A stretch of 64,000 bases of DNA from Spirochaetota bacterium (GTDB taxonomy: Bacteria > Spirochaetota > UBA12135 > COTS27 > JAFLEE01): contig JAFLEE010000001.1 in NCBI GenBank assembly GCA_017302015.1, positions 1-64,000 on the forward strand, read 5' to 3'. Below are positions 4,097 through 55,976 of the stretch, piece by piece. A model generated the notes under the pieces. It did no database searches. It had not been told where the DNA came from and was given only the letters and a program-made list of their open reading frames with translations. The translations under genes were made by a program, and so were the position numbers. Position 1 is the first letter of the stretch; every line of letters begins with the position of its first letter.

Positions 4097-4127
4097 GGGA
4101 GGGCTCCTTCGGGTCGGTCGCGGGGGA

Positions 4128-5510: not shown

Positions 5511-5513
5511 GGG

Positions 5514-39517: not shown

Positions 39518-40654
39518 ATGAGACATCTCCTCCCCTGCCTCCTTGGCGCGTCCCTTTGGCTCCTTTCCCTCTACGGCGAAGAGGAGATCGAGTTCCTCAA
39601 ACGAAAAGAGGGGGACCAACTCGTGCTCTCCGTCAGCAATGGGGCCTACTTGCCCATGCAGGTGCGCCTCTCCGGCGCCCTGGCAGGTTACGAGAGCGAC
39701 CATCCCTTCCCCATCCTCGCGACCCTTCCCCCCCGATCGGTCCCCGACTTGGCGCGTCTCACCCCGGCGAAGGGCGCCACGCGACTCTCGATGAAAGTCT
39801 CCCTGGAAGCTTGGCCCGGGGACCCCGGCCGAGTCCCCGATACGAACGTCACTTACCTCTTCCCCTGGGCCCACGGAGTGCGCCATGCCGTGGGGCAGGG
39901 CTACGGGGGCGCCTTCTCCCACCAGGGGCTCAAGGCCCTCGACTTCGATCTCGCCGAGGGCGAGGCGATCCATGCCGCGCGCGGCGGCATCGTCGTGCGC
40001 ATCCTGAGCAATTTCACCCGGGGTGGGCTCGATCCCGCCCTCATCTCCCAGGGAAATATCCTCGATGTTCTCCACGACGATGGCACCGTGGCCCATTACG
40101 ACCATTTGCGCGCCCACGGCACCGTGCGCCGCCTCGGCGAGCACGTGGCCGCCGGCGATCTCTTGGCCTATTGCGGTCACACGGGCTACGGTTCTGGGGC
40201 CCACCTTCACTTCGAGGTGACCCGGGCCCGAGCCGCCGAGAAGCCCCTGGCGATCCCCACTTTTTTCGCCGGGCCCGGCGGCCAGCGGCTCGTCGCGGAG
40301 GAAGGCCTCTGGTACACGGCCCTCCACCCCGGGAAGCCACCGGTCAAGGCGCCGCCGCCCATCGAAACCCTTTTCCGCGAGTGGTCCGCCCTCACCAACG
40401 CCGTGGCCCGAACGGGAAGCGTCCAACTCCGCGGCGAACAACGCGAAGACCGCTTCCTACTGTACATCCAGAACGGCTATGACCGCCAAATCACCCTCAA
40501 GATCACGTTGGAATCCAAAAATCTAGGGCCGCTCACGGAGGCGGGAAACCCCGTTCTCTGCCCGGCCCTATGCGAGACCCTTTTTGGCGTCTACCGGGTG
40601 CTTCGGGCTGGGGAAAAGATCCGCTACGGGATGAGCTACGAATTGCTGCCGTGA
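39518..40654 (+). CDS. Exported M23-family (LytM-like) peptidase
   Basis: The 378-aa product has a signal peptide (residues 1-~19, LLPCLLGASLWLLSLYG). Its M23 zinc-endopeptidase core includes FSHQGLKALDFDL (HxxxxxxxD ligands), GNILDVLHDDGTVAHYDHL, the VAAGDLLAYCGHTGYG turn and HLHFEV with the last zinc histidine. The insertions and the missing G in the usual NHP motif are minor. It could cleave peptidoglycan cross-bridges or be an outer-surface LytM factor. TACAAT lies one base before the ATG, too close to be its -10. Confidence 0.85.
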   Translation: MRHLLPCLLGASLWLLSLYGEEEIEFLKRKEGDQLVLSVSNGAYLPMQVRLSGALAGYESDHPFPILATLPPRSVPDLARLTPAKGATRLSMKVSLEAWPGDPGRVPDTNVTYLFPWAHGVRHAVGQGYGGAFSHQGLKALDFDLAEGEAIHAARGGIVVRILSNFTRGGLDPALISQGNILDVLHDDGTVAHYDHLRAHGTVRRLGEHVAAGDLLAYCGHTGYGSGAHLHFEVTRARAAEKPLAIPTFFAGPGGQRLVAEEGLWYTALHPGKPPVKAPPPIETLFREWSALTNAVARTGSVQLRGEQREDRFLLYIQNGYDRQITLKITLESKNLGPLTEAGNPVLCPALCETLFGVYRVLRAGEKIRYGMSYELLP

Positions 40655-40673
40655 GCCGACGGCGCGCCGACCG

Positions 40674-42137
40674 CTATTCGCCGAGGCCCGTCTTCTTGTA
40701 ATAGGCCTTCAGGAACGGGTTGTCGACGAGGGAGAGCGGCACCTTCTTCCCGGCCGCCTTCGCCGCGTCGATCGTCTTCTGGCGCGCCAGGGCCTGCTCG
40801 AACCGCGGTTTCATCTCGAGGTGGACCTTCATGAAGCCGGCGATGTGCTCGTTGATGGCCCCGTCGATGGCCGCGACGGCCTCCTCGGCGCTCATGAGGT
40901 CGTTCATGAAGCTCTGGATGGAGAGGTTCTCGATGCGCGAATATTTCTGGTATTGGGCGTAGGGGGTGATATCCCGGGGGAGGGCGTAATTGTTGGCGAT
41001 GTCGCGGCAGGCGGCCTGCATGGCCCACTCGTTGGTGTAGCCCTTGGGGCGCAGGAACTCTTCGCGGTCCATGAACTTGGGATTGGGGGGGATGCCGTCG
41101 CTATCGTTGACCACGTGCATGTTGTACTCGTCGCTGCGCAGGAAGCCGAGGAAATAGATGGCCGCCTCGCGCTGGCGGGAGCCCGCGTAGAGCACCGCGG
41201 CTCGGGTGGTGGAGAACACGTTGGGGAAGCCGCCGTGGGGATAGACGATCTGCGCCCATTCCGGCCGGTTGGCCATCTGGCGCATCTGGATCATCGCCCA
41301 CCGGCCGGTATCGACCATGCCGAAGTTCCCCTTGTTCAGGAGCTGGTAGCTCAACCCGCCGTAGCCGTATTCCGTGGCGAAGGAGGCCATCTCCGCCGCC
41401 GTCGGCGCGAGGTGGTCCTTGTAGACCCACTTGTAATTGAGGCGCAGAACCCGCACGAACTCCTTGCGGTTGCCGCCGGAAGCCGTCAGGGTCTCGTTGA
41501 AATAGGAGACGCCCACGCTGCGGCGCATGGCCTCCTGGTTGATGGAGGCGGCGTAGAAGACGTCCCGCCGCTTCCCGACGTTCGCCCGCTCCACGAACTC
41601 CTTCCCGTGCTTCTCGAAGGCGTCGAAATCCATGAGGAACGACGGCGGGGCCATGCCGTGGCGGCGGAAGACGTCGACGTTGACGAGGTAGCCGGCGATG
41701 CCCAGGTTGCAGGGGAACGCGATCTGCTTGCCGTCGGCGAGGATGTCCGGCAGGAGGCTCGGGAACAATCCCGAATCGGGGTACCCGAAGCGCGCCTCCA
41801 GGTTCGTCACCGCCTGTATGATCCCCATGTTGTAGAAATAGCGGAACCAGGTGCTGCCGGCATCGATGCAATCGCCCGCGACCCCGGTGACCCCCTGCAC
41901 GATGGTCTTGTTGACGCCCTGGTTGTTCACGTCGACGCGCAAGTCGATGTCTTGATACCCCCGTTTCTTCAACCAGGAGCGGAACAGGGCGATCTGCTCG
42001 ACGCGCGCCGGGTTGGCGTCGGTCACCCAGTAGATGACGGGCAGGTCGCCCCCGCGGAACTTCTGGTCGAACTTGTAGTTCATGTACTGGGAGAAGGCGA
42101 TGAGCACCGCCAACAGGCCGAGGAATAGGTTCTGCAT
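40674..42137 (-). CDS. Membrane-anchored solute-binding protein, copy 1
   Basis: The 487-aa protein is a family 1 extracellular solute-binding protein of the ABC sugar type. It starts with an uncleaved-looking hydrophobic segment (about residues 4-20) that ends YKFDQKF with no lipobox or signal-peptidase site. The signature VIYWVTDANPARVEQIALF follows. It shares nearly every motif with the next gene, including DCIDAGSTW, TAAEMASFA and SDGIPPNPKFMD. No permease or ATPase gene flanks it. AAGGAG supports the ATG. It is 24 bases downstream of copy 2, in the same operon. Confidence 0.8.
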   Translation of the reverse strand: MQNLFLGLLAVLIAFSQYMNYKFDQKFRGGDLPVIYWVTDANPARVEQIALFRSWLKKRGYQDIDLRVDVNNQGVNKTIVQGVTGVAGDCIDAGSTWFRYFYNMGIIQAVTNLEARFGYPDSGLFPSLLPDILADGKQIAFPCNLGIAGYLVNVDVFRRHGMAPPSFLMDFDAFEKHGKEFVERANVGKRRDVFYAASINQEAMRRSVGVSYFNETLTASGGNRKEFVRVLRLNYKWVYKDHLAPTAAEMASFATEYGYGGLSYQLLNKGNFGMVDTGRWAMIQMRQMANRPEWAQIVYPHGGFPNVFSTTRAAVLYAGSRQREAAIYFLGFLRSDEYNMHVVNDSDGIPPNPKFMDREEFLRPKGYTNEWAMQAACRDIANNYALPRDITPYAQYQKYSRIENLSIQSFMNDLMSAEEAVAAIDGAINEHIAGFMKVHLEMKPRFEQALARQKTIDAAKAAGKKVPLSLVDNPFLKAYYKKTGLGE

Positions 42138-42161
42138 CGAATGGCTCCTTGGGCGCGGGCC

Positions 42162-43625
42162 CTATTCTCCGAGGCCCTTGTCTTTGTAGTAGCGGGCCAG
42201 GAACGGGTTGTCGACGAGGGCGAGGGGGATCTTCTGTCCGGCCGCCTTGGCGGCGTCGATCTTCTTCTGGCGCTCCTGGGCCGCCTGGAAGGCCGACCGA
42301 AGGTCGGGGTGGGTGCGCATGAAGCGGTCGAGCTCGTCGTTGACCCCCTGCTCGATGAGGGCGACCGCCTGCTCGGCGGTGGTGAGGCGGTTCATGAAAC
42401 CCTGGATCGCCAGGGACTCGGCCCGGTTGTACTTCTGGAAGAGGGCGAACGGGCTGATGTCGCGGGGGAAGGCGTAATCGTTGGCGATGCGCCGGCTCGA
42501 GGCGTGCATGGCCCACTCGTTCGTCTTCCCCGCGGGCTTCAGGAACTCGTCGGTGTCCATGAATTTCGGGTTCGGGGGGATGCCGTCGCTGTCGCGCACC
42601 ACGTGCATGTTGTAGTCGTCGCTGCGCAGGAAGGCCAGGAAATGGACGGCGGCGTCGCGGTTCTTCGTCCCCGCGTAGAGCACCGCGGCGCGGGTGGTGG
42701 CCATGGCGTTGGGGTAGCCGCCGTGGGGATAGAGCACCTGGGCCCACTGCACGGGGTTCTTCATCTTGCGCATCTGGATCATCGCCCAGCGCCCGGTCTC
42801 GACCATCCCGAAATTCCCCTTGCAGAGGAGCTGGTACTGGAGACCGCCGTAGCCCTGCTCCACCGAGAACGAGGCCATTTCGGCCGCCGTGGGCACGAGG
42901 TGGTCGGTGTAGGTCCACTTGAACATGAGGTTGAGCACGTCGACGAACTCTTTGCGGTTGATGGCGCTGCGGGTGAGCGTCTCGTTGAAATGGGTCACCC
43001 CGAGGCTGCGGCGCATGGCCTCGTGGCTAATGGCCCCGGCGAAGAACGTCTCGCGGCGCCGCCCGGCGTTCGCCTTCTCGACGAACTCCTTGCCGAGGCG
43101 CTCGAAGGTCGCGAAATCCATGAGGAACGGGGGCGTCTCCATCCCGTACTTCTTGAACACATCGGCGTTGACCAGGTAGCCCGCGATCCCGAGATTGCAG
43201 GGGAAGGCGATCTGCTTCCCGTCGACGAAGATGTCGCTTCGGATGCAGGGGAAGAGCCCGTCATCGGGGTAGCCGAAGCGCTTCTCGAGGTTGGTCACCG
43301 GGCTGATGATGCCCATGCTGTAGAAATAGCGGATCCAGGTGCTGCCCGCGTCGATGCAGTCGCCGGCCACCCCGGTGACGCCCTGCACCACGGTCTTTTG
43401 GGCCCCCTGGTTGTTCACATCCAGGCGGAGGTCGATGTCTTGATAGCCCCGCTTCTTCAGCCATGATTTGAAGAGCGCGATCTGCTCGATGCGCGCGGGG
43501 TTGGGATCGGTGACCCAATAGATGACGGGCGCGCCCCCCTGGCCGATGGCGCCCGAGAAGCGCCAGCTCATGAACAGGGAGAAGGCGATGAGGGAAGCGA
43601 GAAAACCGGTGAATAGCCAACGCAT
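42162..43625 (-). CDS. Membrane-anchored solute-binding protein, copy 2
   Basis: The product is also exactly 487 aa and is a clear tandem paralogue of the preceding gene. It has an N-terminal hydrophobic anchor (about residues 3-18), VIYWVTDPNPARIEQIALF, DCIDAGSTWIRY, FPCNLGIAGYLVN, PTAAEMASFS and a C-terminal LVDNPFLARYYKDKGLGE. The ligand is probably a sugar or oligosaccharide. AGGAG lies upstream of the ATG at 43625. It is the first gene after a clear promoter (43675-43703). A partner permease must lie elsewhere if these feed an ABC importer. Confidence 0.8.
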   Translation of the reverse strand: MRWLFTGFLASLIAFSLFMSWRFSGAIGQGGAPVIYWVTDPNPARIEQIALFKSWLKKRGYQDIDLRLDVNNQGAQKTVVQGVTGVAGDCIDAGSTWIRYFYSMGIISPVTNLEKRFGYPDDGLFPCIRSDIFVDGKQIAFPCNLGIAGYLVNADVFKKYGMETPPFLMDFATFERLGKEFVEKANAGRRRETFFAGAISHEAMRRSLGVTHFNETLTRSAINRKEFVDVLNLMFKWTYTDHLVPTAAEMASFSVEQGYGGLQYQLLCKGNFGMVETGRWAMIQMRKMKNPVQWAQVLYPHGGYPNAMATTRAAVLYAGTKNRDAAVHFLAFLRSDDYNMHVVRDSDGIPPNPKFMDTDEFLKPAGKTNEWAMHASSRRIANDYAFPRDISPFALFQKYNRAESLAIQGFMNRLTTAEQAVALIEQGVNDELDRFMRTHPDLRSAFQAAQERQKKIDAAKAAGQKIPLALVDNPFLARYYKDKGLGE

Positions 43626-43674
43626 GGAGACTCCTGGTCGGAAATCGGGGGCGGCGCAGCCGCGGGGCCGCCCT

Positions 43675-43703
43675 ATTTTACGACAGGGCGCGATTCCCGA
43701 CAA
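43675..43703 (-). promoter_or_regulatory. Promoter of the binding-protein pair
   Basis: On the minus strand TTGTCG (43698-43703) and TAAAAT (43675-43680) are 17 bp apart. The leader of about 40 bases ends in the AGGAG before the ATG at 43625. Confidence 0.7.
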
Positions 43704-43723
43704 TTGCGGGATCCCCCGAGGGG

Positions 43724-43906
43724 CTATTTCTCGAAGAGGGCCTCGAGGGTCCAGGCGGCGGCGCGCTTGGCCTGGGATTTTCCCTCGCCCAAGGCCGCCC
43801 GGCCCGCCGCACGACCCTCGGGCGTCACCGCGATCCACCCCTGCCAAAGGGCCAGCGCGGCGAGGGCCGCGAACAGCAAAACGACCAGGAGGATTTTTTT
43901 GAACAT
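43724..43906 (-). CDS. Small single-pass membrane protein
   Basis: A 60-aa product with one hydrophobic helix (about residues 4-22) and a basic/amphipathic tail (GKSQAKRAAAWTLEALFEK). GGAGGGGG before the ATG supports translation. It lies 52 bases after the small lipoprotein gene and may be the last gene of that surface operon. Confidence 0.5.
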   Translation of the reverse strand: MFKKILLVVLLFAALAALALWQGWIAVTPEGRAAGRAALGEGKSQAKRAAAWTLEALFEK

Positions 43907-43958
43907 GGCGCCCCCTCCATCATCGGGAGGGGAGCGGAAAAGCCTTAAGAGATCTCGC

Positions 43959-44111
43959 CTAGCGCTTGCGGTTCTCGTATTCCTTGAGGCGCTGGTTGGC
44001 GTCGGTCTTCTTCAGGTCGTCATCGTCGACCACGGCCTTCTCCATCGCCTTGCAGCCGACAAGGAAGAGGAACACGGAGGCGAGCAGGAGCCAGAGCAGA
44101 TGCTTCTTCAT
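43959..44111 (-). CDS. Small lipoprotein
   Basis: A 50-aa product with a typical lipoprotein signal: MKKHLLWLLLASVFLFLVGC, with the lipobox LVGC. The mature part is about 30 charged residues (DDDDLKKTDANQRLKEYENRKR) that could form a helix. The ATG at 44111 begins the lysine-rich signal; it sits ten bases after the PorV-like gene, so the two are likely co-expressed. Confidence 0.7.
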   Translation of the reverse strand: MKKHLLWLLLASVFLFLVGCKAMEKAVVDDDDLKKTDANQRLKEYENRKR

Positions 44112-44121
44112 GGCGTGACTC

Positions 44122-45159
44122 TCAGAGTTTCGCGCTGACATTGATCGCCAGCGTCTGGATGGAGGTGCCGAGTTGGGTTTCGGTGGGGAGCCACTTGAAC
44201 GCCAGATCGACGTCGGCGACGAATTTATCCATCTGCAGGTGGAGGCCCATGCCCACGCCCATGTGGAAAGCGTCCGTGGTGCTGAGGCCCACGCCCAAGC
44301 GCAGATAGATCAAATCGAGGAAATTGGCTTCGAGGGACCCGCGACCGCCGAAGGCGAGCGAGCCGTTGGTGGTGGAGATCGGGGGGCCGACCAGGGTGGC
44401 GTCGAGGGCGGGGGTGAGCACGACAAAGCGCCCCAAATTGATGTCGTATCGTCCGCCCAAGGCCATCTGCATGTCGTTCCCCTCCACCAGGCTGGGCGAG
44501 GAAACCAGCGCGTTGCTGGAGGCGCCATAGCCGAAGGGGAGGATATTGACGGCGCTGAACCCGAGCCATAGCCCCGGCTTGAACAGCTGGGCCTGAAGCC
44601 CCACATCTGTGTTGAAGATGTTGAATTGTCGCTTGAGATCGTTCGGAAGCGCCGGGATGCCGAGTTCGCCGTTGTACTTGTAGGACGCGTCGAACACCTT
44701 GAGGCGCACGCCGAGGATGAGGTCTTGGATCTTGGCCTTGCGGAAGGCGTTGAGTTTCCCGAAATTGAACGTGCCGGCGACGCCGACGGTCATGAGTTCG
44801 TAGACGCCGGCCAGGGGGCGGTTGTAGAGCGAGATGCCGAAGGTGGAGAGCACGGCCTTCTTCACGGTGACCACGGGACTCACGATGCTCACGTGGAAGT
44901 CCATGATCTCCTGGCCCTGGGGCAGGATGCCGGGGAAATGCATGTTGTAGCCGGCCACGAAACTCAGCGAGGTGACCCCTCCGATGGTGGCGGGGTTCCC
45001 GTACATGTCGGGCATCCCGTTGAGGGCGGCGACCGTATTGGCCAGGGCGACGACCCGAGCGTTGGGGTCGAGCATCACCACTTCCGCCCCCGACCAGGGG
45101 GCGAGGGCCAGAGCGAGGGCAAGGGCGAGGCATCGGGGCGGGGTGTGAAAAACTTTCAT
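44122..45159 (-). CDS. PorV/UPF0164-like outer-membrane protein
   Basis: The 345-aa product has a signal peptide (about residues 1-25) and the opening typical of PorV/PorQ-like and UPF0164 barrels: DPNARVVALANTVAALNGMP, followed by MYGNPATIGG and SLSFVAGYNMHF. The rest is alternating beta strands (VVLTPALDATLVG; LRLGVGLSTTDAF) ending in a short strand, as in FadL-related outer-membrane barrels. It follows the FlgD/T9SS-like gene by 14 bases. In Bacteroidetes PorV works with type IX secretion; no other T9SS gene is seen here. Confidence 0.75.
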   Translation of the reverse strand: MKVFHTPPRCLALALALALAPWSGAEVVMLDPNARVVALANTVAALNGMPDMYGNPATIGGVTSLSFVAGYNMHFPGILPQGQEIMDFHVSIVSPVVTVKKAVLSTFGISLYNRPLAGVYELMTVGVAGTFNFGKLNAFRKAKIQDLILGVRLKVFDASYKYNGELGIPALPNDLKRQFNIFNTDVGLQAQLFKPGLWLGFSAVNILPFGYGASSNALVSSPSLVEGNDMQMALGGRYDINLGRFVVLTPALDATLVGPPISTTNGSLAFGGRGSLEANFLDLIYLRLGVGLSTTDAFHMGVGMGLHLQMDKFVADVDLAFKWLPTETQLGTSIQTLAINVSAKL

Positions 45160-45172
45160 TCGCGACTCTCCC

Positions 45173-46297
45173 TTATTGTCCCATCACCATGAACGAACCC
45201 TTGTAATTCCGGGTATCGGAGGTTCCGATCTTGAGGACGTAGACGTAGACCCCCGGGGGGGCCAAGCGCCCCTCTTTGGTGATCCCGTCCCAGATCACGC
45301 TGGTGCCCAGCGTGGACTGGCTCTCGAAGATGGATCGCCCGCGGAGGTCATAGATGATGAACCTCACCGCCTCCGCGCTCTCGTTCTGGAAAGTGCAGTG
45401 GAAATTGCGGAACAGGGGGTCGGTGCTCACCGGTACGATGAGGCGGCTCGAGACGACGGCCTGCTCCGTGTTGGGGTTCACGTTTCCCCAGCCCTTGTAG
45501 ACGATGCCGAGATTGCCCTCTTCCGAGACGAGGGCGCTGAGCGCGATATATTGGGGACCCAGCTCGTAAAAAGTGTTCCGCGGGACCCAGGTGCGGCCGT
45601 CCCAGGTGGCGATGGAGAGATCGAATCGGTTGGTGAGGTGGAGGTTCGTCCCCGCGAAGCCCGGGACCGCGATGAACGCGGTGTTCGTGAGTTGGAGGAA
45701 GTACTTCACGCGGAAGGAAACCGGCAGGAGCAGGGTCCCGTTGGAGTCGTTGTCGGTCAGTTGATATTCCATGTAGGCCTTGCCGCGGAAGCGGTAGGTG
45801 GCCACGCTGGAATTGGTGATCAAGATGAACGAGAAGGTCATATTGGAGGCGAGGGCATTGCTGGGGAAAATCACCCGGGCGTCGGCCGTCCCGAGGGTGC
45901 GGGACTGCACAGGGCCGAGATTCCCGATATAGAAGGAACTATTGGACATCTGGCTATTGCTGAGGAGGGTCAGGCTGCGCGTCACGGAATAATTGGTGGC
46001 CGCGTAGGCGATGGTGATCACGTAATTGTAGGGATACCCGTAGAACAACGCTTGATCGTCGAGGAAGATCCCGGGCGAGAGTTGGTTGCTGGCCACGGCC
46101 TTTTCGATCCCATTGGCCGTCACCGTCAGGGTGTAGGGGTCGACGATGGTGGGGTCATACGCGGGGAAAAGGGTGATCAAGGCCCCCGTATTCGTCTGGA
46201 CGAGGGTGGCCCCGTTCAGGTCGTAGGTGATGCCCGCCCAGGCAGACGCCAAGGTCACGGCCACACAGGTCAGAGTCAACCGTAAGTTACGGTACAA
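45173..46297 (-). CDS. Exported protein with FlgD-like/T9SS-like C-terminal domain
   Basis: The 374-aa protein has a signal peptide (MYRNLRLTLTCVAVTLASAWA). Its beta-rich body has no recognised domain. The C-terminal region of about 70 residues (IIYDLRGRSIFESQS; WDGITKEGRLAPPGVYVYVL) is the FlgD-Ig-like or type-A T9SS sorting fold. Start is TTG at 46297, required to keep the signal peptide, with GCGGGGGCG just upstream. It heads an operon with the PorV-like gene, which makes cell-surface export plausible. The combination resembles surface proteins of uncultured phyla that share this C-terminal fold without gliding motility. Confidence 0.7.
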   Translation of the reverse strand: MYRNLRLTLTCVAVTLASAWAGITYDLNGATLVQTNTGALITLFPAYDPTIVDPYTLTVTANGIEKAVASNQLSPGIFLDDQALFYGYPYNYVITIAYAATNYSVTRSLTLLSNSQMSNSSFYIGNLGPVQSRTLGTADARVIFPSNALASNMTFSFILITNSSVATYRFRGKAYMEYQLTDNDSNGTLLLPVSFRVKYFLQLTNTAFIAVPGFAGTNLHLTNRFDLSIATWDGRTWVPRNTFYELGPQYIALSALVSEEGNLGIVYKGWGNVNPNTEQAVVSSRLIVPVSTDPLFRNFHCTFQNESAEAVRFIIYDLRGRSIFESQSTLGTSVIWDGITKEGRLAPPGVYVYVLKIGTSDTRNYKGSFMVMGQ

Positions 46298-46332
46298 AGC
46301 GCCCCCGCTCGTTTCAAAACGTTTTCATTCTT

Positions 46333-46361
46333 ATTTTAATGAAAAAGTTTTATTCATGCAA
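46333..46361 (-). promoter_or_regulatory. Promoter of the surface-protein operon
   Basis: On the minus strand TTGCAT (46356-46361) and TAAAAT (46333-46338) are 17 bp apart. The leader is about 30 bases to the TTG start at 46297. Confidence 0.65.
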
Positions 46362-46483
46362 ATTCCCCGATCCCCGGCGAATTCGAATATTTGCCGAGTT
46401 GGGGGCCCCGAAGACCGTTTCGGCCGACACCGTTCGGTGAAATCCCGAAAATGCCCCTTTCGGTTTGCATATTACGATCGGGC

Positions 46484-49400
46484 ATGGCGGGCGACCCGGA
46501 TCTTGATGGCGAAATCAGGGAATTGGAGCGAGAAGCCCGGGAAATGGCCGGAGCCCTCCAGGAGTACTCCGACCAAAGCCTCGCCCTAAACCCCTCCAAT
46601 CCGGTGGAAAAGGTCAAGCCCCGCCTTTCCACCCCTGAAATCACACCCCAGATCCCCGAAACTCCGCTAAGCCCCTATATCCGGGTGGTGGTTTCCGAAG
46701 ACTCCATGGTCGCCCATCTCTTTATCTATCCCCCGGAGGGGGCCAAAGTTCCGGCTAGCCACGAGGCGGTCCTCACCGCCATCCGCCAGAAGGGCGTCGT
46801 CTATGGGTTGGAAATGGCGGCGGTTACGGGCGCGGTCGACACCTTCAACGCCCAATTCCGCCCGGTGATGCAGGCGCTCATCGCAAAGGGCACGCACCCA
46901 CAACCCGGTAAAAATGCCGTCTTCGAGCCCGCGGTTGAATTCCTGGTTCGCGCCGCGTTCCAGATACGGTTCCCCGAAATACCCCTTCCCCCCGACGAAG
47001 CTAAATTCGCCCGGGTCGACGGTCCCGGCTTACTGGGATGGATCACCCCCGAAACCAAGGGCACCCCGGGCAGCACGGTCCTTGGGAAAAAAATTCCCGC
47101 TGAAAGCGGCGCCGCGGCCATCAAAGTACTCCAGCCGATCGCCCAAGAAAAGCAGGGGGAGCGGATCGCCCTGCGCGTGAGGGCCGCCTGCGCCCTCCAG
47201 TGGACGGAGAGCCAGCTTCGAACGATCCCGATCCCGAAGGCCAAGGCGGGAAAGGGCGCGGGGGAAGCCGCGCCGAAGGGCGCCCTCCCCGCCGAACCCT
47301 CCAAGCCCCAGATCCCGGTGCTCTCCCTCGTCATCGCCGAAAACCATATGGCGGCCTGGCTGACCCTACGGCCTCCCGAAGGCAGGTCCGTTCTCCTCGA
47401 TTCCAAGGCGGTCACGGCCTGGCTGCGCAAGGGCGGGCTCCGCTACGGCATCGATGGCGCGGCCGTCTCCTCCTTGGTGCAGGAATACAACCAAGCCCCC
47501 AACACCATCGAGCAACGCCTCGTGGCCCAGGGGATCCTTCCCCAAAATGGCGATGACGCCCTCCTGGAACTCGCCATCCCCTTCACCCCCCGATCGGTAT
47601 TCCATAAGGACAACCCAGACCTCCCCATGCCCGAACCCGTGGGAGAGGAATTCTACGCGCTGGTCGAGGAGAAGACGCTCCTCGCCAGGATCAAGTCCGA
47701 GACGCGGGGAAAGGCCGGCATCACCGTGAAGGGGCTGCGTCTGGCGGGCCGCAACGGCGTGAATCCCTTCCGGGCCGGGAGCGGGGCCCTGAGTTCCCGC
47801 AGCGAGCGGGGCGCGGTCCTCACGGCGAAGATCGGCGGCATCGCCATCCGCCGGGGGAACGAGTTCCGGGTGATCGATCTCCCCAAACCGCAGGCGGAGA
47901 GCGAGAAGCTCCTCGCCGCCATCCCCGAAGTCGAGATCTCCCCCGACCTCCTTTCCGCGAGCCTTTCCATCCATCCCCCCGAGGGTCCCTCCAGGCCCCT
48001 CGACTACAAGTACCTCGCGGCGTTCCTGAAGCAGAAGGGCGTGCGCGTCGGCCTCAAGGAAGGCGCGCTTCGCGAGATCATCGAGCGCTACAATAGCCAT
48101 CCCCAGCGGATCCCCCCGCAGCCCGTGGCCGCGGGCATGCCGATGACCCCGGGAACCGACGCCCGCCTCGAGGTCGCCCACGGCTTCGTCGACCAGCCGA
48201 CCTTCCTCCGGGCCCACCCCGGGCGGCCGATCCCCGAGGGGTTCCCCGACCGCCATTTCAAGCTGGTCAACCCCGGCGAGATCGTCGCCGTGCTGGTCCC
48301 CGAGACGCGGGGAAAGAACGGGATGACCGTCGGGGGCGTGGCCATCACGGCGATGAACGGGTCCAATCCCTTCACCATGCGCGGCGGGCTCGTACCTCGG
48401 CGCACGGAGGGTCGGGTGGAACTCATCGCGCGGCTTACGGGCCTCGCGGTGCACGATGGCAACGCCGTGGCGGTCATCGAGTACCAGCACGTGGGGGTGC
48501 AAGTCCGGCTGGAAGAGGACGATTTCAAGGCGAGTTGCCAACTCCTCCCCCCCGCGGGGCTCTGCCTCCCCCTGCAGGTCCAGGAGGTGCACGAGGCGAT
48601 CAAGAGGGCGGGGGTGAGCTACGGCGTCGCCTGGAAGACCATCGACCAGGAGGTGCTCGCCTACCAGGCCCAGCCCGGCCTCAGGCAATTCATCTGCGCC
48701 ATCGGGGATCGGCCCGAGAACGGCTTGGACGGCCGGCTTGATTTCCTCATCGACATCGACCTCCGACCCGTGCTCACCCCCGACCCCAACGGGCGCATCG
48801 ACTACCGCTTCCAGCGCAACCTCATCCTCGTGAAGGCGGGGATGCGCGTGGCCACCGTGACCCCCCCGACCCCGGGCACGAAGCACGGGGTGACGGTGCG
48901 GGCCCGGGACGTGCGGGCCGAAGACGGGAAGCCCGTGCGCCTGACCCTCTTCGACGGGCTGACGGAGACGGAGGACCGGGGCGTGAAGGTCATCACCGCC
49001 TCCAAAGACGGGGAACTCAGCTGGGATTCCAAGCGGGCCGAAATGCGCGTCTCCAGCCACAAGACCGTGGAGGCCGTCGACCTCGCCCTGGGCAACCTGA
49101 AATTCATCGGCAACGTGACGGTGCAGCGGAACATCGAGGACGGCATGACCGTGGAGGTCGAGGGCGATCTCATCGTGAAGGGGATGGTCCTCGGCGCCAA
49201 GGTCACCGTCGACGGCAACCTCGCCTGCGAGGGGGGCATCATCACGAAGGAGGGCGGTTTCGTGACCGCCACCAAGGACGTGCGCGCGCGCTTCGTGGAG
49301 AACTCCACCATCAAGGCCGGCGGGGCCGTGGTCATCGAGCGGGCGATCCTCCATAGCCGCGTCTATAGCCTCGAGACCATCACCGCCATCAGCGCGCGCA

Positions 49401-49915
49401 GCTTCGTCATCGGCGGGGTCCTCGTGGGCCGGGAGGGCGTGAGCATCCACCACCTGGGGAACTCCGCGGGCGCGCGGTCCCTCGTGCATCTTGGTTCCGA
49501 CTGGCGCGAACTCGAGCAGTACCTCGAATTGGGCGCCCGCCTCAAGGGGCTTCGGGAAGACGCCCTGCGCATCGACCAGGAGATCCAGCGCGTCGCCAAG
49601 GCCGTCGGCGGGAAGATCGAAACCCTCACCCCCGCCCAGAAGCAGGTCTACCGCGGGCTCCTCCAGCGCAAGGGGGGCCTGATCAAGGATTTCCGGGCCC
49701 GGCGCGAGGAAGCCCAGGCCCTCCTCGCGCGCATCGAGGACGTCTCCGATGCCGACCTCTCCGTGCTCGGCTACGTCTTCCCCGACAATACGGTGCGGTT
49801 CGGGAACACGAAGCACATCACCACGGGGAACATGCAGAAAGTGCGCTTCCTCTTTGAGAAGGAAAACCGGGAAATCCGCTTCGCCTCGCTCAAATCGGAT
49901 CCGGTGAAGGCCTAG
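46484..49915 (+). CDS. Giant FapA/DUF342-family protein with four N-terminal repeats
   Basis: The 1143-aa product belongs to the FapA (DUF342) family. Four related N-terminal units of about 190-200 aa start near residues 64, 277, 482 and 669. Each opens with a beta strand and a PPEG/PPAG turn (LFIYPPEGAKV; LTLRPPEGRSV; LSIHPPEGPSR; LLPPAGLCLPL), followed by YG(V/I/L)-type helices. A single FapA beta-helix region follows (about 830-1040, VEGDLIVKGMVLGAKVTVDG), then a coiled-coil-like helix (about 1045-1110). Family members normally have one N-terminal unit and about 500-650 aa. The N-terminus is charged with no signal peptide, so it is cytoplasmic. The ATG at 46484 follows TATTAC by eight bases. 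No flagellar genes are near. Confidence 0.85.
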   Translation: MAGDPDLDGEIRELEREAREMAGALQEYSDQSLALNPSNPVEKVKPRLSTPEITPQIPETPLSPYIRVVVSEDSMVAHLFIYPPEGAKVPASHEAVLTAIRQKGVVYGLEMAAVTGAVDTFNAQFRPVMQALIAKGTHPQPGKNAVFEPAVEFLVRAAFQIRFPEIPLPPDEAKFARVDGPGLLGWITPETKGTPGSTVLGKKIPAESGAAAIKVLQPIAQEKQGERIALRVRAACALQWTESQLRTIPIPKAKAGKGAGEAAPKGALPAEPSKPQIPVLSLVIAENHMAAWLTLRPPEGRSVLLDSKAVTAWLRKGGLRYGIDGAAVSSLVQEYNQAPNTIEQRLVAQGILPQNGDDALLELAIPFTPRSVFHKDNPDLPMPEPVGEEFYALVEEKTLLARIKSETRGKAGITVKGLRLAGRNGVNPFRAGSGALSSRSERGAVLTAKIGGIAIRRGNEFRVIDLPKPQAESEKLLAAIPEVEISPDLLSASLSIHPPEGPSRPLDYKYLAAFLKQKGVRVGLKEGALREIIERYNSHPQRIPPQPVAAGMPMTPGTDARLEVAHGFVDQPTFLRAHPGRPIPEGFPDRHFKLVNPGEIVAVLVPETRGKNGMTVGGVAITAMNGSNPFTMRGGLVPRRTEGRVELIARLTGLAVHDGNAVAVIEYQHVGVQVRLEEDDFKASCQLLPPAGLCLPLQVQEVHEAIKRAGVSYGVAWKTIDQEVLAYQAQPGLRQFICAIGDRPENGLDGRLDFLIDIDLRPVLTPDPNGRIDYRFQRNLILVKAGMRVATVTPPTPGTKHGVTVRARDVRAEDGKPVRLTLFDGLTETEDRGVKVITASKDGELSWDSKRAEMRVSSHKTVEAVDLALGNLKFIGNVTVQRNIEDGMTVEVEGDLIVKGMVLGAKVTVDGNLACEGGIITKEGGFVTATKDVRARFVENSTIKAGGAVVIERAILHSRVYSLETITAISARSFVIGGVLVGREGVSIHHLGNSAGARSLVHLGSDWRELEQYLELGARLKGLREDALRIDQEIQRVAKAVGGKIETLTPAQKQVYRGLLQRKGGLIKDFRARREEAQALLARIEDVSDADLSVLGYVFPDNTVRFGNTKHITTGNMQKVRFLFEKENREIRFASLKSDPVKA

Positions 49916-50319
49916 GCGACGCCCTTTTGGGCGAAGAACGCGCCGTATCCCTTGTCGGTCTTCTGGATATGGTTCTTCAGCCAGGAGGTCAAGAACTCGA
50001 GGAGATCGACGGAAAGCATCAGGGTCTTGGCCCGCAGCTTCGCCTGGAAATCCGTCACCTGGGCGATGAGGGCCCGATGCTCCCCGCGGTGGACCTCGAG
50101 GTCGGGATAGGCATGGGTGGCCATGAGGGCCTCCTCGGAGGCGAAATGCGTCTGGGTATAGTCCACGAGGTCGCTGAGCACTTGGTCGAGGATCTCCCCC
50201 GACTTGCGCGCCAGCATGGCTTCATGGACCTTGTTGATGAGGTCGATGAGTCGCCGGTGCTGCTCGTCGAACGCGCGCACCTCCACCGACAATTCCGGGG
50301 TCCAGGAAATATAGGCCAT
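49912..50319 (-). CDS. Bacteriohemerythrin
   Basis: The 135-aa product is a hemerythrin-fold diiron protein that binds oxygen. The ligand pattern is complete: EVRAFDEQHRRLIDLIN, HFASEEALMATHAY, HRGEHRALI and NHIQKTDKGYG (His, His, Glu, His, His, His, Asp). Its role may be oxygen sensing, storage or delivery. CAGGAG before the ATG at 50319 decides this start over an upstream in-frame ATG. Its stop codon overlaps the FapA stop on the other strand, in CTAG. Confidence 0.92.
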   Translation of the reverse strand: MAYISWTPELSVEVRAFDEQHRRLIDLINKVHEAMLARKSGEILDQVLSDLVDYTQTHFASEEALMATHAYPDLEVHRGEHRALIAQVTDFQAKLRAKTLMLSVDLLEFLTSWLKNHIQKTDKGYGAFFAQKGVA

Positions 50320-50495
50320 CGGGAAGCTCCTGAAGACGCTTGTGGCGGCCGCCTGCCGCGGCGTCTCCGCGGAGGTCATCCTGACGCCCCGCTCGATGGA
50401 GGATCGTAACCGGGAATCCGCCTCCGCGCAAGAAGGCGGGAGCTTCCAGGCTCCGCGGCATTCGGCGGCGCGGCGGAGGGAGGGTCGCGCGCGAT

Positions 50496-52847
50496 CTATA
50501 GGGGCCGCACGGTGACGGAAGTCGCCCCATGGGCCCCGACCTTCACGCGCACATGGAAGACCGTGCGCGTCAGGTCATCGGAATCATAGGCGGAAAGGAA
50601 GGTGGCGGGGCCCTCGACCCGGTAATTGCCCCGGGCCAGCACGAAGCGCGCCCGGGCATCGTCGAAGACCTCGCCGAGCCGGTTCGTGAAGACCACGGTG
50701 TTCGAGGTCTGGGTGCCGTCATTCGGGAGGATCCAGGATCGCGTCAGCCGCCGCTCCACCGCGTCCTCGGGCCCGCCGGCGAAATGGGACAGCGGTAACG
50801 AAGCCGGCGACTCGGGGGCATGGGCGGGCCGTCTCGCGACCCAGCGCGGATCCGGATCATCATCGGCCCCGCGGCGCGTGGCGATGCTGACCCCATCCGG
50901 CGGGAGCAGGGCAGGATCACGCCAGAAGATCGGGGGATCCTCGGGGGAGCCCAGGTAGCCCGGAGCCCCCAAGCGCCACCGGTGGTCGAGTTCGAGGGAA
51001 AACCGCAGGAGCCGGCCCCCCACGGGCCATCCGAGGGCGGGGGACATCGTGCTCACGTACGGATAGTTTTGGTTGGAGCGTAGTCCATCCATCGGGGGCA
51101 CATTCCCCACGAACAAGCTCGGGCGGGGAGGCGCCTCGTTGCTCAGCGGTTTCCACGCGTCGCGGTGGGAGAAGAGGATGCGCAGGTCGTCGCGGGCATC
51201 CCGCTGGCTGCGCTTCCACAGGGGCAGGGTCACCCGGCCCGGATCGGATTGGCTATCGTGGAAGAGAAAATAGACCCCCGACATCCGAAGATCGTGGAAC
51301 CAGGGACCCACCCAGCGCAGCCACTGCTCATGGCTTTGGGCATGGCTCCAGAGCACCGCGTTGGATTGGGGCGTCGTGTCGGAGTCGCCCGGGATCGCGA
51401 GGAGGGCCTGGTCCGCGGCGCCGAGGATCGGGGCGAGATGCTCCAGATCCTGCCGCAGGCCGGCCCACGGAAGCAGCCCGCCCCCGACGACCAGGGCCCG
51501 GCCCCCCGCCAACGACGCGACCTCGAGGGCCTCGGCCGCCATGGCTTCGGCTTGGGGCGTGCCGCTGCGGAGTTCCCCGACGTGCACGATATAGAACGGT
51601 TCCGAGAAGGAAGTGAGGACCTTCACGGCCCGGGCCTGGCGCACGACGCGCTTCGCGCCGCCCACCACGGCGGTGATCTCGAGGTCCCACAGGTCCGCGG
51701 GCACCGGCGGGCGCAGTTTTCGCAGGGGCGCCTGGAGCGTCCACCCCGCCCGGGTCTCGTGGAGGATGCCGTTCTGCCCGAATACGGGCCGCGTGACCAT
51801 GGGGAGGGGGATCGCCTTCTCCCGGTTCATCAGGCGGACCTCGAAATCTTGGGCGTCTTCCGGGCCCTCCACCTCGATGGCGATCGTACCGAGGGTGTCG
51901 ACGATGGCCGGCATCGAGGTGCGGGGACGGATCACGGAGAAGACCGGAGGGAGGACGAGATCATTGGAGAGGCAATCGCCCTCTTCGAGGCCGAGCCTCA
52001 GGGCGAGGTCGAGATCGGGCCAAGCGTTGACCGCGAGGTTGTAACTGCGCGCCCGCAGGCCGGAGCGGGAGAAGCGGCCGAACCCGTCGGTATAGAAGAC
52101 CGCTCCATTGTCGAGGGTGAGCTTGGCTTGGGGAACCCCGGCCCCCGTCGGCAGGCGCACCTGGCCCTCGAGGGTGGAGAACGGGAAGGTGCCCAAGCGC
52201 ACGCCGTCGACCAGGAGTTGGGGGCCGCGTCCCCGACCCCCCTCGGCGCTGCTGGTGCGCCAAGCCCAGGCGTTCGTCGCCGCGCGCGGACAGAAACCGA
52301 GGTTCGTCAGCTCGAGGGTGTAGGTCTTCTCGGGGTCGAGCTCGTTGGCGATGAGGAACTCGCGCACCTGCCCCACGACGCCCCCCCGGGCGTATTGCAG
52401 GACCGACGGCGCGTAGGTCTCCAGGTTGGTCGCCCATTCCCCGCCCGGCCCGCGGAGAACCGCCCGGGCCGTCTGGCCCTCCTCATGCATCAGCAGGAGG
52501 GCGGAAACGCTTCGCATCCGGCTGAAGGAGAGCCGCAGCACCGGTTTGGCGGCGAGATTGGTCGGGAAATCCTGCCCATAGCCGAACCCGCTGGAAACCA
52601 GGTTTCCCCCGGAGCACATGCCCCGGCGTTCGGAAAGAAAAAGGGCGGGAAGCGGCCCCGACCTCCCGGTGGTCCACGCGTAGGATCGATTGGAGGCGAC
52701 CCCCGCTCGGAGTTCGATCCGGGGATCGTCCGATTCCACCAGCCCGGGTTCGAGGATCGGTGCCGTCTCGGCGAACGCCGATCCCAAGAAAAAGAGGAGC
52801 CAGGAGGCCGCCCGCCCCGGGCGGAGCCGGAAGAAGCTACCGATCAT
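50496..52847 (-). CDS. Exported protein with metallophosphoesterase-like region, metal ligands degenerate
   Basis: The 783-aa product has a signal peptide (MIGSFFRLRPGRAASWLLFF, ending SAFAE). N-terminal beta-rich domains include a carboxypeptidase-regulatory-like stretch (VDGVRLGTFPFSTLEGQVRLP). A central segment (about residues 425-600) follows the calcineurin-like phosphoesterase pattern, but each expected metal motif is changed: VHVGELRSG for (I)xGDxH, VGGGLLPW for GDLV, IPGDSD for GNHD, ILFSHRDAW retained. The C-terminal part is beta-rich. The starting ATG at 52847 overlaps the preceding gene by 11 bases. It is the last gene of an exported-protein operon from 54892. Catalytic activity looks doubtful. 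Confidence 0.6.
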   Translation of the reverse strand: MIGSFFRLRPGRAASWLLFFLGSAFAETAPILEPGLVESDDPRIELRAGVASNRSYAWTTGRSGPLPALFLSERRGMCSGGNLVSSGFGYGQDFPTNLAAKPVLRLSFSRMRSVSALLLMHEEGQTARAVLRGPGGEWATNLETYAPSVLQYARGGVVGQVREFLIANELDPEKTYTLELTNLGFCPRAATNAWAWRTSSAEGGRGRGPQLLVDGVRLGTFPFSTLEGQVRLPTGAGVPQAKLTLDNGAVFYTDGFGRFSRSGLRARSYNLAVNAWPDLDLALRLGLEEGDCLSNDLVLPPVFSVIRPRTSMPAIVDTLGTIAIEVEGPEDAQDFEVRLMNREKAIPLPMVTRPVFGQNGILHETRAGWTLQAPLRKLRPPVPADLWDLEITAVVGGAKRVVRQARAVKVLTSFSEPFYIVHVGELRSGTPQAEAMAAEALEVASLAGGRALVVGGGLLPWAGLRQDLEHLAPILGAADQALLAIPGDSDTTPQSNAVLWSHAQSHEQWLRWVGPWFHDLRMSGVYFLFHDSQSDPGRVTLPLWKRSQRDARDDLRILFSHRDAWKPLSNEAPPRPSLFVGNVPPMDGLRSNQNYPYVSTMSPALGWPVGGRLLRFSLELDHRWRLGAPGYLGSPEDPPIFWRDPALLPPDGVSIATRRGADDDPDPRWVARRPAHAPESPASLPLSHFAGGPEDAVERRLTRSWILPNDGTQTSNTVVFTNRLGEVFDDARARFVLARGNYRVEGPATFLSAYDSDDLTRTVFHVRVKVGAHGATSVTVRPL

Positions 52848-53172
52848 CGCGTCCCGGACTGATCTTATGGAAGACATAAACGAGGAGGAAGGCGCCGAGG
52901 GCGGCGGCCACCAGGTTGACCGGCGGGAGGAACCGGCCGTCCGTATTGCGCATGAGCCAGTTCACGGCGTCGAGGGCGAGGTAGAGCACGTCCACCAGGC
53001 GGCAGAGGATCCAGTCGAACGCGAAGCCCCCGGCGACCGCGCCGAAAAAGGCGACACCCATGGCCGCCCAAAGGCCGCCGACGTTCGGGCGTTTGAGCAG
53101 GCGGAAATGCAGGAGACCGAAGGCGACCCCGAGGGCGAGGTCGATGGCGAGGCTGAGGAGGGTTTGCGTCAT
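52837..53172 (-). CDS. Small multi-pass membrane protein
   Basis: The 111-aa protein has three or four hydrophobic segments (about residues 5-22, 32-50, 54-68, 88-105) and a charged C-terminal tail (KISPGRDDR). No family is recognised. It starts directly after the upstream lipoprotein gene and overlaps the next gene by 11 bases, so it is translationally coupled within the operon. No clear Shine-Dalgarno is present. Confidence 0.65.
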   Translation of the reverse strand: MTQTLLSLAIDLALGVAFGLLHFRLLKRPNVGGLWAAMGVAFFGAVAGGFAFDWILCRLVDVLYLALDAVNWLMRNTDGRFLPPVNLVAAALGAFLLVYVFHKISPGRDDR

Positions 53173-53177
53173 ATTTT

Positions 53178-54086
53178 TTACAGCCTCGTGGCGAATTGAT
53201 TGGTCTGCCAAGCCATCACCCCCCCGAGGATGATCGGGGAATTGGTGGACGAGACGGTGCCCGAAACGTTGGTGACCATGATTTTCACATTGACATTGGA
53301 CATCCGCACGAAGAAGAGGTTTCCCACGGCGACGGGGAACACCGATCCCGCCGACGCCCAGCCCGTCGTCGGGATTTCCATCGACGTATTCCAATCGGCG
53401 GGACTGCCCTTCGCCTGGATTTGGCCCGCGCTGTTCGGCCCGACGGCGAGGGCGGGGTAATACACCCCCGCCGTCTGGCCGACGATCGAAACCAATAGGG
53501 AGCTCACCGCCGACCAGGGGCCGGCCGGGGACGTCTGGCTCAGGTTCGTGCCGTCGAAATCCAGTGCGCTCCCGGAGTTGGTGAAGAAGAAATTCGTCAA
53601 GCTGAAGCCGGCTTCGGGTCGGGGGGTGATCTCCCACGGCACCGAGGGCCCGCTCTCGAAGAGGCCGCGATTGGTCCGCAGGCTCCCCAGCAATTGGTTG
53701 GAACCGAGGCAGGTGACCACCGCCCAATAGCGGTGGCCCGTCGCCAGGCCGCCGATCGTCGCGAGGGCGTATTGGCTCCCGTTGGCCTGGGCGGTGAAGG
53801 CGACGCTCGCCTTCAGGTGGGGCTTGAGCGACAGGTTGTCGTAATCATTGGGATCGACGTTGTGCACATTCGTCAGTTCCCACGGCGCGTCGGCGAGGTA
53901 GATGTTGTACCGGATGAAATCGACGCTCACGACCCAGGATTGGACCTGCACGGTGGCCTGCGAAGGGGCCAGGCTCACCGCGTTCACCAGGGGGGTGGGA
54001 TACCCCACTAGGGTGGTCGTCTGTGTCGGGTCGAAGGCGCATGCGCCGAGGAGCGGAAAGAGCAAGGCCCAATGGAAGCCCTTCAT
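53178..54086 (-). CDS. Lipoprotein of unknown function
   Basis: The 302-aa product has a lipoprotein signal MKGFHWALLFPLLGACAFD (lipobox LGAC). The mature part is Ser/Thr/Asn-rich with fibronectin-III-like or Ig-like beta segments (YNIYLADAPWELTNV; GHRYWAVVTCLG), suggesting an adhesive or surface protein. The ATG at 54086 overlaps the upstream lipoprotein stop (ATGA). It shares overall style with the preceding gene and may be a distant paralogue. Confidence 0.7.
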   Translation of the reverse strand: MKGFHWALLFPLLGACAFDPTQTTTLVGYPTPLVNAVSLAPSQATVQVQSWVVSVDFIRYNIYLADAPWELTNVHNVDPNDYDNLSLKPHLKASVAFTAQANGSQYALATIGGLATGHRYWAVVTCLGSNQLLGSLRTNRGLFESGPSVPWEITPRPEAGFSLTNFFFTNSGSALDFDGTNLSQTSPAGPWSAVSSLLVSIVGQTAGVYYPALAVGPNSAGQIQAKGSPADWNTSMEIPTTGWASAGSVFPVAVGNLFFVRMSNVNVKIMVTNVSGTVSSTNSPIILGGVMAWQTNQFATRL

Positions 54087-54892
54087 AGCAGGGGGCTCCC
54101 CTTCAAGAAGGCCCAATGGAACAGAAGGTTCGATCCTTGGCGTTCCTCCACCCAGAGCTTGGCGTAATTGGTCGTGGGGTTCACGGCATAGAAATAATAC
54201 ACGTGCTTCACGTAAAGCGGCAGGGGCGCGCTCCCGTAGCCGGAGACGGGGGCCGGGAACGCATTCGTCCAAGACGCCGCCGCCCCGACCGATTGGAGGA
54301 ACGATCCGTTCTGGGGGATCAGGCTCGACCCGGAGACCTTGAAGCCCGGGCCATCGTTGGTGTAGGGCACCTCCTCGAAGAGGCTCTGGCGCGTCAGCCA
54401 TTTCGGGATGCGCACCTCGGCGACGTTATTGTAGCCGCTGCTCTCCATGCGCGTGCGCCCGGCCCAGGCGGTCACGATGAGGAAATAACTGTCGTGGGCA
54501 TTGAAGGGCTCGCGGGTGACGACCCCGGTGGCCGTATTGGACCACCACCATTGGGAGAAATTCACCGTGACGGTGCTGCGCCCCTCGCCGGGGCGCGCGT
54601 TGACGCTGGGCTTGTAGAGGTTGTCGGCGAAGACGAATTGCTGGAGGATCGTTTGGGCGGCGTTGAGCCGGTACCAATAGAGGTTGTAGCCGCTGAAATC
54701 GGGGGCGCTCTGGGGGGGATAGTCCCCCGTGATCTTCAGCACGATGTTCTCGCCATCGAATCGGGCGTCCACCGACTCGGGGGAGAGAAGCGTGGTCTGG
54801 AACTCGTAGGGATTCGGGACGCCGCAGGAGAACGGCAGGAGGAGGGCGAGGAGGGCCACGGCGCACCATCCTCCGACGGGGGACTTTCTCAC
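54083..54892 (-). CDS. Lipoprotein of unknown function
   Basis: The 269-aa product has a signal MRKSPVGGWCAVALLALLLP with lipobox FSCG. It also carries FNIII-like phrases (FSGYNLYWYRLNAAQT; HDSYFLIVTAWAGRTRM) as in the following gene. Function is unknown; the operon context (two lipoproteins, a membrane protein and an exported large protein) points to an envelope complex. It is the first gene of the operon 54892-50496. Confidence 0.7.
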   Translation of the reverse strand: MRKSPVGGWCAVALLALLLPFSCGVPNPYEFQTTLLSPESVDARFDGENIVLKITGDYPPQSAPDFSGYNLYWYRLNAAQTILQQFVFADNLYKPSVNARPGEGRSTVTVNFSQWWWSNTATGVVTREPFNAHDSYFLIVTAWAGRTRMESSGYNNVAEVRIPKWLTRQSLFEEVPYTNDGPGFKVSGSSLIPQNGSFLQSVGAAASWTNAFPAPVSGYGSAPLPLYVKHVYYFYAVNPTTNYAKLWVEERQGSNLLFHWAFLKGSPLL

Positions 54893-54965
54893 CGGCGCCT
54901 TCTGCCGGCGGGGCAGACGGCCTCCGATCGGGGAACGGGAGCAGGGGAATTTCGCCGCATGGGGA

Positions 54966-55976
54966 TCACCGGGTGTAATGGTACACCAGACGCAGCAGAT
55001 GCAACAAGCCCGGCAAATGGACCCGATGGGCGTCGGCTCCCTCGCTCGTCATCGATTCCCCCTTCATTTTCCGGTCGAGGTCGAGGACGCCCGCCATCGC
55101 CGTCTTCACTTCCCCGAGGCGCGCGTTCCCCGCGCGCGCGCGGAGGGCGGCCTGGGCCCGCGGCCAATACACGCCGATGGATCTCCAGATCTCGGCCTCG
55201 CCCTCCCCCGCTTCCTTCAATTCGAGGAGTTGCAGGGTCTTCCAGGTCTCGTCGATGAGGATGGCGTTGAGCGCGATGAGGTCGCCCCCGTGCCCGAGGT
55301 AATCGAGGAGCGCTTCGAGGGAGGCGCGCCGCCGGCGCTCCAGGAAAAGGCCCGCGAAGGCGAAGAGGTCGATCTCTCCCCCCGTCCCGCAGAGTTCCCG
55401 GGCGTCCTCCACGCGCAGGCGCTTCTCGCCCACCGCGCGGTCGCCGAAGTAGGCGGCGATCTTCTCGAGTTCGCCCTCGAGCGCCGAGGGATCGCCCTCG
55501 AGGGATCGGGCGAGGTGGTCGAGGGCGTCGTCGTCGACGGCGATGCCCTCCTCTTTGAAGCGGGCCTGCATCCGCCGGGAGAGTTCCCGGGCATCGGGCG
55601 GGTAGAGTTTCCTCACCTCCGCCGCCCCGCGGCGCTTCTCCAGGGCCCCGGCCACGGCGGCGGCGCCGATTTTCGGGTCGTCCTGGGTCAGCACCAGGGT
55701 GCAATCGGGCGGGCATTGGCGGATCGCCTCGGCCAAAGCCGCCTTTTCGCCCATGCGCTGCATGCGGTGGACGATGACGACCTTGAGGGGCGCCCCGAAG
55801 GCGGGGGTGCAGACTTCGGCGACGAGTCGCTCCCCCGAAAGATCCTCGCCGTAGAAGCGCAGCACCGCCAGTTCGCGCCATTCCTCGGGAACCCGGGCCA
55901 CGGCGGCCTGGATCTCCCGGCGCACCGCCCAGGGGTCGTCGCCGCAGAGCGCGAGGATATGGCGAGCGCCCGCCAT
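54966..55976 (-). CDS. holA: DNA polymerase III subunit delta
   Basis: HolA is the clamp-loader subunit that opens the beta sliding clamp. The 336-aa protein has the N-terminal clamp-binding module starting ILALCGDDPWAVRREI, TPAFGAPLKVVIVHRM and the middle region typical of HolA (LEGELEKIAAYFGDRA; GEIDLFAFAGLFLERR), with a helical C-terminal collar. Length matches the family (330-350 aa). It is immediately preceded by the LptE-like gene with the stop and start codons adjacent, as in many Gram-negatives (lptE-holA). Confidence 0.9.
   Translation of the reverse strand: MAGARHILALCGDDPWAVRREIQAAVARVPEEWRELAVLRFYGEDLSGERLVAEVCTPAFGAPLKVVIVHRMQRMGEKAALAEAIRQCPPDCTLVLTQDDPKIGAAAVAGALEKRRGAAEVRKLYPPDARELSRRMQARFKEEGIAVDDDALDHLARSLEGDPSALEGELEKIAAYFGDRAVGEKRLRVEDARELCGTGGEIDLFAFAGLFLERRRRASLEALLDYLGHGGDLIALNAILIDETWKTLQLLELKEAGEGEAEIWRSIGVYWPRAQAALRARAGNARLGEVKTAMAGVLDLDRKMKGESMTSEGADAHRVHLPGLLHLLRLVYHYTR

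Follow-up and report, generated by a model that had tools for sequence, protein, structure and literature searches.

What would a FapA-family protein with four N-terminal domains do when its gene lies outside the flagellar cluster? The gene in question occupies positions 46484..49915 (+) of the window (the whole stretch of 64,000 nucleotides analyzed here, from a Spirochaetota genome that is 93% complete) and encodes 1143 amino acids, with ATG at 46484 and a stop codon ending at 49915. The start codon is uncertain, as the reading frame continues upstream without a stop as far as TTG 46391. The GC content at codon positions 1/2/3 is 0.68/0.44/0.87, and the high value at the third position against 0.44 at the second fits a real gene. 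One promoter-like site occurs nearby, on the opposite strand (0.3 in shuffles), terminators are as in shuffles, and no Rfam match was found at positions 40000–56000 of the window.

In Pfam, the FapA_N domain (PF20250) matches the protein in four stretches (5.9e-87, 290 bits for a cut-off of 27) and the FapA beta-solenoid (PF03961) matches it once (3.5e-44, 151.9 bits for a cut-off of 31). With both defining domains above cut-off, the protein is a member of the FapA/DUF342 family; up to E 1, the only other Pfam entry is a sub-threshold DUF3375. All features lie on the + strand. An N-terminal helix (residues 5–35) and a low-confidence linker (46484..46669, model pLDDT 33–60) are followed by FapA_N copy 1 at 46679..47116 (profile positions 1–146 of 178; 4.7e-20), copy 2 at 47324..47848 (positions 2–174; 2.3e-18), copy 3 at 47927..48457 (positions 2–176; 1.0e-18), and copy 4 at 48497..49021 (positions 1–174; 9.8e-27). 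Copy 4 adjoins the solenoid at 49064..49864 (model pLDDT 93), which is split by a coiled coil of two long antiparallel helices (residues 1006–1086, 49499..49741) and closed by C-terminal strands. The per-copy E-values come from a whole-genome search in which each stretch is significant alone. In pairwise BLAST, the copies share 27–35% identity (E 6e-8 to 2e-35), copy 2 being 34% identical to copy 1 and 35% to copy 3. Chance repeats were rejected, since Pfam, pairwise BLAST, and the per-copy search are all significant. The earlier note, made from the letters of the window, had proposed four diverged copies with starts near residues 64, 277, 482, and 669; the copies are indeed there, and those starts fall within 5 residues of the HMM starts (about 67, 281, 482, and 672). 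Its single beta-helix with a coiled coil is likewise borne out, by the one PF03961 match and by the AlphaFold2 model. No stretch of 19 residues exceeds 1.5 on the Kyte–Doolittle scale in this protein, which is predicted to be a large scaffold of the FapA family with no obvious transmembrane helix.

The whole-chain AlphaFold2 model was built from a 63-row alignment (mean pLDDT 69.6, pTM 0.40), with good local confidence in copies 3 and 4, in the solenoid, and in the coiled coil (about 90 at residues 1006–1086). As to the likeness of the repeats in structure, copies 3 and 4 present the same elements in identical order, and the first half of copy 1 is well modelled, its second half having pLDDT values of at most about 56. 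Copy 2 is poorly modelled nearly throughout (pLDDT mostly 25–56), so that its fold rests on sequence. The low confidence across the end of copy 1 and copy 2 probably stems from the alignment gap left by the three-copy relatives. Neither the whole chain nor the solenoid had a Foldseek match at E 0.001 or below; in structure comparison (VIA), the solenoid matches common beta-solenoids. The resemblance of the second half of copy 4 to ribosomal L27 and the exosome (VIA, Z about 7) was too weak for use. Among PDB sequences, the FapA_N profile found nothing below E 0.03.

Both neighbors of the gene lie on the opposite strand: downstream, an ORF with a hemerythrin domain, and upstream, one with a CHU_C domain. 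The CHU_C ORF (45176–46297, −) is secreted-looking, with a C-terminal sorting-type domain, and is divergent from the fapA gene. Farther off in the window, we observed two adjacent paralogous ORFs for extracellular solute-binding proteins (40677–43847, −) and a cell wall/division cluster with a D-Ala ligase, two Mur ligases, and FtsW/RodA (3068–8086, −), some 38 kb away from fapA. An ORF that follows a Clp-type AAA gene (36981–37841, +) resembles L088:5580–6476, the ORF that immediately precedes the gene for the two-copy FapA in genome G003 (23% identity, 61 bits). No flagellar family was found among the 40 other window ORFs scanned, as the earlier note had stated of the neighborhood.

Three FapA proteins are present in this genome: that of the window, one on contig C18, and a third form of 566 amino acids on contig C151. 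On C18, the order is a SRP54-type GTPase (FlhF), a MinD-type ATPase (FlhG), a 181-amino-acid ORF, a sigma factor, and a FapA that carries a Jag_N domain. This arrangement matches the published orders FlhF-FlhG-FlgV and sigma28-FapA-YjfB (PMC11607428). With the flagellar-operon fapA on another contig, the window gene is a separate paralogue. It lies outside the FlhF-FlhG-sigma28-FapA cluster, where the slot is occupied by the C18 gene, and its product is not an orthologue of the flagellar-operon FapA. FlhA (contig C150), FliG, and flagellins are also present in the genome.

Copies were counted in relatives with an HMM built from fetched FapA_N domains, over 77 loci (several overlapping) that also contain single-copy FapA of the flagellar type. 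Two-copy proteins occur in G003 (of the same class as the window genome), G146, G023, and G005, and three-copy proteins in G005, G009, G048, G129, G141, G307, G328, G369, G375, and G378. A strong form of uniqueness for the architecture was rejected on this ground, multi-copy relatives being common in Spirochaetota. The earlier note had named an architecture already common in a studied clade as grounds for refutation; this holds in part, for the conserved operon family with three full copies and one half copy. Four full copies occur only in the window protein, among the matches listed for the phylum. In a tree of the last FapA_N plus solenoid (63 rows), the window protein groups with G003 (95/89), then with G146 (92/89), and so with two-copy relatives and outside the clade of operon-encoded proteins described below. 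A weakly supported branch (86/73) unites all 15 multi-copy rows with seven single-copy rows, five of which are split-gene forms. In a tree of the domains, without strong support, copies 1–3 of the window protein are one another's closest relatives, with copy 4 near the last copies of other proteins. The two trees together suggest that the protein arose from a two-copy ancestor by multiplication of its front domain.

Such a history is also what neutral repeat growth would leave, the extra copies adding no new activity and the protein acting as an ordinary FapA paralogue. The copy number does vary from 2 to 4 among relatives, and the mutual nearness of copies 1–3 is as a tandem duplication within the lineage predicts. 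However, despite 27–35% identity the four copies are still recognizable (4.7e-20 to 9.8e-27), which suggests that selection has held them for a long time, and we regard neutral growth as the least probable of the explanations weighed here.

The domain itself appears composite. In five genomes of two families, FapA_N is split across two neighboring ORFs, so that ORF 1 ends with the first module and ORF 2 begins with the second; the loci with a split first FapA_N are L007 (G029), L008 (G046), L009 (G039), L010 (G018), and L020 (G006). In 67 three-copy proteins, the spacer of 89–95 amino acids between copies 1 and 2 is homologous to the N-terminal half of the FapA_N domain (hhalign 93.6%, E 2e-7); the stretch that precedes FapA_N in 32 flagellar-type FapA is homologous to this half as well (hhalign 96.6%, 5.9e-10). 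In one protein of the operon family (L079), Pfam counts four FapA_N stretches. These half-copy homologies imply that FapA_N is made of two modules, of which the first can be repeated alone. The assumption that the usual FapA has one N-terminal domain has to be qualified to this extent, since in the spirochaete flagellar type a half copy already precedes the full one, and in the window genome this FapA has a Jag_N domain as well.

Five three-copy proteins were then used as queries against genome contigs, and 80 of the 86 matched relatives were analyzed, a sample that is selected by the queries and is not a census. Members include Alkalispirochaeta alkalica, Breznakiella homolactica, Gracilinema caldarium, Candidatus Marispirochaeta, and Treponema MAGs; all the loci returned are titled as spirochaetes, except “bacterium isolate BP7.bin59,” whose title gives no phylum. 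Three full copies are present in 67/80 loci. The counts of (full, partial) FapA_N are (3,0) in 52, (3,1) in 15, (2,2) in 5, (2,1) in 3, (0,0) in 3, (1,1) in 1, and (2,0) in 1, the low counts including loci truncated at contig ends. Immediately upstream of the multi-FapA_N gene there is a gene for a MinD-type ATPase in 66 of the 69 loci with more than 1.4 kb upstream. With the first ATG in frame taken as the reference point in fapA, the ATPase stop overlaps it or precedes it by at most 30 bases in 55/68 rows. This ATPase forms a conserved family of 380 amino acids with the motif KGGVGKS (68 sequences), distinct from FlhG of the flagellar cluster, with which it shares 25–41% identity over parts. 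Downstream, lgt is present in 60 of the 65 loci with more than 1.3 kb on that side, and a divergent gene for a CtpB-like S41 protease lies upstream in 36/51 loci. In two genomes of family f20, the same trio of ATPase, FapA, and lgt occurs with a two-copy FapA; the number of domains thus varies (two there, three plus a half elsewhere) while the linkage to the ATPase and lgt persists. We found no name in the literature for these operon-encoded proteins, and a search that had most subscription journals outside its reach found no paper on multi-FapA_N proteins or on the pair that they form with the ATPase.

The position of the gene between the ATPase and lgt, with the protease gene divergent from it, is what one would expect of a cytoplasmic protein that scaffolds the assembly of lipoproteins or of the cell wall at defined sites. 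Envelope or polar organization, one of the roles offered by the earlier note, is compatible with these neighbors in the relatives, but none of them accompanies the window gene. Housekeeping neighbors may, in addition, share an operon without sharing a function, and an envelope organizer of this kind seems to us quite unlikely.

The window gene is an orphan, without the ATPase and lgt neighbors seen in relatives, and no match to the MinD-type ATPase was found within the 64-kb window. In a search of 17 genomes, a member of the ATPase family (at least 246 bits) was found in 8, linked to FapA in 4 and unlinked in 4 of the split-gene group; it is absent from the other 9 of the 17, among them the window genome and two-copy genomes. 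The two-copy relatives that lack the ATPase (G003, G005, G023, and G146) indicate that the pairing with FapA is not universal. In G129, two further members of the ATPase family occur besides the operon copy (C1:198154–199230 and C1:2172934–2173818, 232 and 215 bits). In the window genome, FlhG scores highest (75 bits), followed by one ParA-like ORF (70 bits), against at least 246 bits for family members.

That FlhG comes first is one reason to consider a second, enlarged flagellar factor, acting through FlhG beside the ordinary FapA on the number or placement of periplasmic flagella or on basal-body assembly. FapA is a family of flagellar assembly, the window genome has flagellar genes, and HubP recruits the FapA of V. 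vulnificus to the cell pole (PMC12918733). All 55 genomes tested with a multi-copy FapA carry flagellar markers, FlhA in 52 of them and flagellin plus FliG in the other 3. An attempt to dissociate the multi-copy FapA from flagella through the absence of FlhA failed accordingly, and the role other than a flagellar one that the earlier note had put forward is not established. Yet FlhA is present in 197/198 sampled genomes of the phylum, so its co-occurrence carries little weight, and the window gene stands outside a flagellar cluster that has its own FapA, with 0/40 of the scanned ORFs flagellar. On balance, a second flagellar factor appears fairly unlikely.

A positioning ATPase beside a beta-solenoid protein calls for a comparison with MinC. 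MinC_C (PF03775) has no match up to E 1 in the window protein and none at E 0.001 in the window genome. Above cut-off, it was found in 0/14 genomes (13 multi-FapA genomes and that of the window), with controls in 6/14; one sub-threshold match occurs in G369. The FapA of C151 matches the NCBIfam MinC at 4.9e-5, below cut-off. Against the PDB, the solenoid profile ranks MinC first (1hf2) and third (4v02), with E-values of 0.16 and 0.2 that are not significant. Chain 4v02_D, the MinC of a MinC:MinD complex, superimposes on the solenoid with Z 10.4 (rmsd 3.3 Å, 106 of 119 residues), tied with unrelated beta-solenoids at Z 10–13. Judged by these profiles, the protein is not a MinC. In the flagellar cluster too, FapA lies near a MinD homologue, FlhG (on C18, and in PMC11607428). 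Campylobacter has no Min system; there, FlhG affects where the division site is placed, and it may localize unknown proteins of MinC-like function, as the authors suggest (PMC3228812).

We tentatively favor, at somewhat under even chances, a reading in which the solenoid and coiled coil would act as a MinC-like adaptor of a positioning ATPase of the MinD/FlhG type, with the string of FapA_N domains as a binding arm and the window copy as an orphan of the system. The protein belongs to a multi-FapA_N group of spirochaetes that stands apart from the FapA of the flagellar operon. The solenoid and coiled coil would offer the surface that couples to the ATPase, and the FapA_N string may form a multivalent arm that binds a cargo or a landmark at the pole or membrane. 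Periplasmic flagella, an envelope complex, or the site of division could then be what the adaptor and ATPase position. For most operon-type relatives, the partner would be the ATPase whose gene comes just before that of FapA. The organism of the window has four copies of the front domain and lacks the dedicated ATPase, and here FlhG or another ATPase of the ParA type may be the partner. The linkage between the genes is not proof of interaction.

For the placement of division sites and periplasmic flagella in spirochaetes without a recognizable MinC, the linkage of the ATPase and multi-FapA_N genes (66/69 loci) provides a concrete two-gene candidate, and it connects the poorly understood FapA family with MinD-type ATPases. 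The four-copy form is a variant, and the gene pair is the more interesting finding; the window protein shows, for its part, that the front domain can reach four copies and that the ATPase can be absent. A side branch of the FapA family standing beside its own positioning ATPase in many spirochaetes hints at a little-noticed positioning system. In its broadest form, spirochaetes, with no MinC recognized in the genomes tested, would use a MinCD-like spatial regulator that pairs a multi-FapA_N protein with its own MinD-family ATPase, parallel to FlhG-FapA, with a multivalent cargo arm whose length varies with the lineage (four full domains in the window organism, where the adaptor would be handed over to FlhG); this generalization is rather doubtful, if a real possibility.

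Among the known systems close to the window protein is FapA itself, flagellar assembly protein A (for example, Borrelia BB0267 and Vibrio vulnificus FapA), in which FapA_N also comes directly before a beta-solenoid with a coiled coil. FapA has one FapA_N, or one and a half, whereas the window protein has four full ones and no Jag_N; FapA belongs to a sigma28-FapA-YjfB flagellar cluster (PMC11607428), and the window gene lies outside it. In V. vulnificus, FapA binds dephosphorylated EIIAGlc (PMC6877527). Bactofilins share the beta-solenoid (weak profile match to 6ria, E 0.41), but the architecture differs and the window protein has no bactofilin match in Pfam. With MinC and MinD, the likeness is a beta-solenoid candidate partner beside a MinD-type ATPase in the relatives of the window protein; the difference is that the protein itself has no match to a MinC domain and its gene no neighboring ATPase. 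The operon-encoded proteins (such as Breznakiella homolactica L156 and Alkalispirochaeta alkalica L134) have three full copies and a half copy, in an operon with the MinD-type ATPase and lgt, whereas the window gene is an orphan that codes for four full copies and is nearest to the two-copy form of G003. What they share is a single solenoid preceded by at least two full FapA_N in tandem, and the window protein, with four, belongs among the proteins so built.
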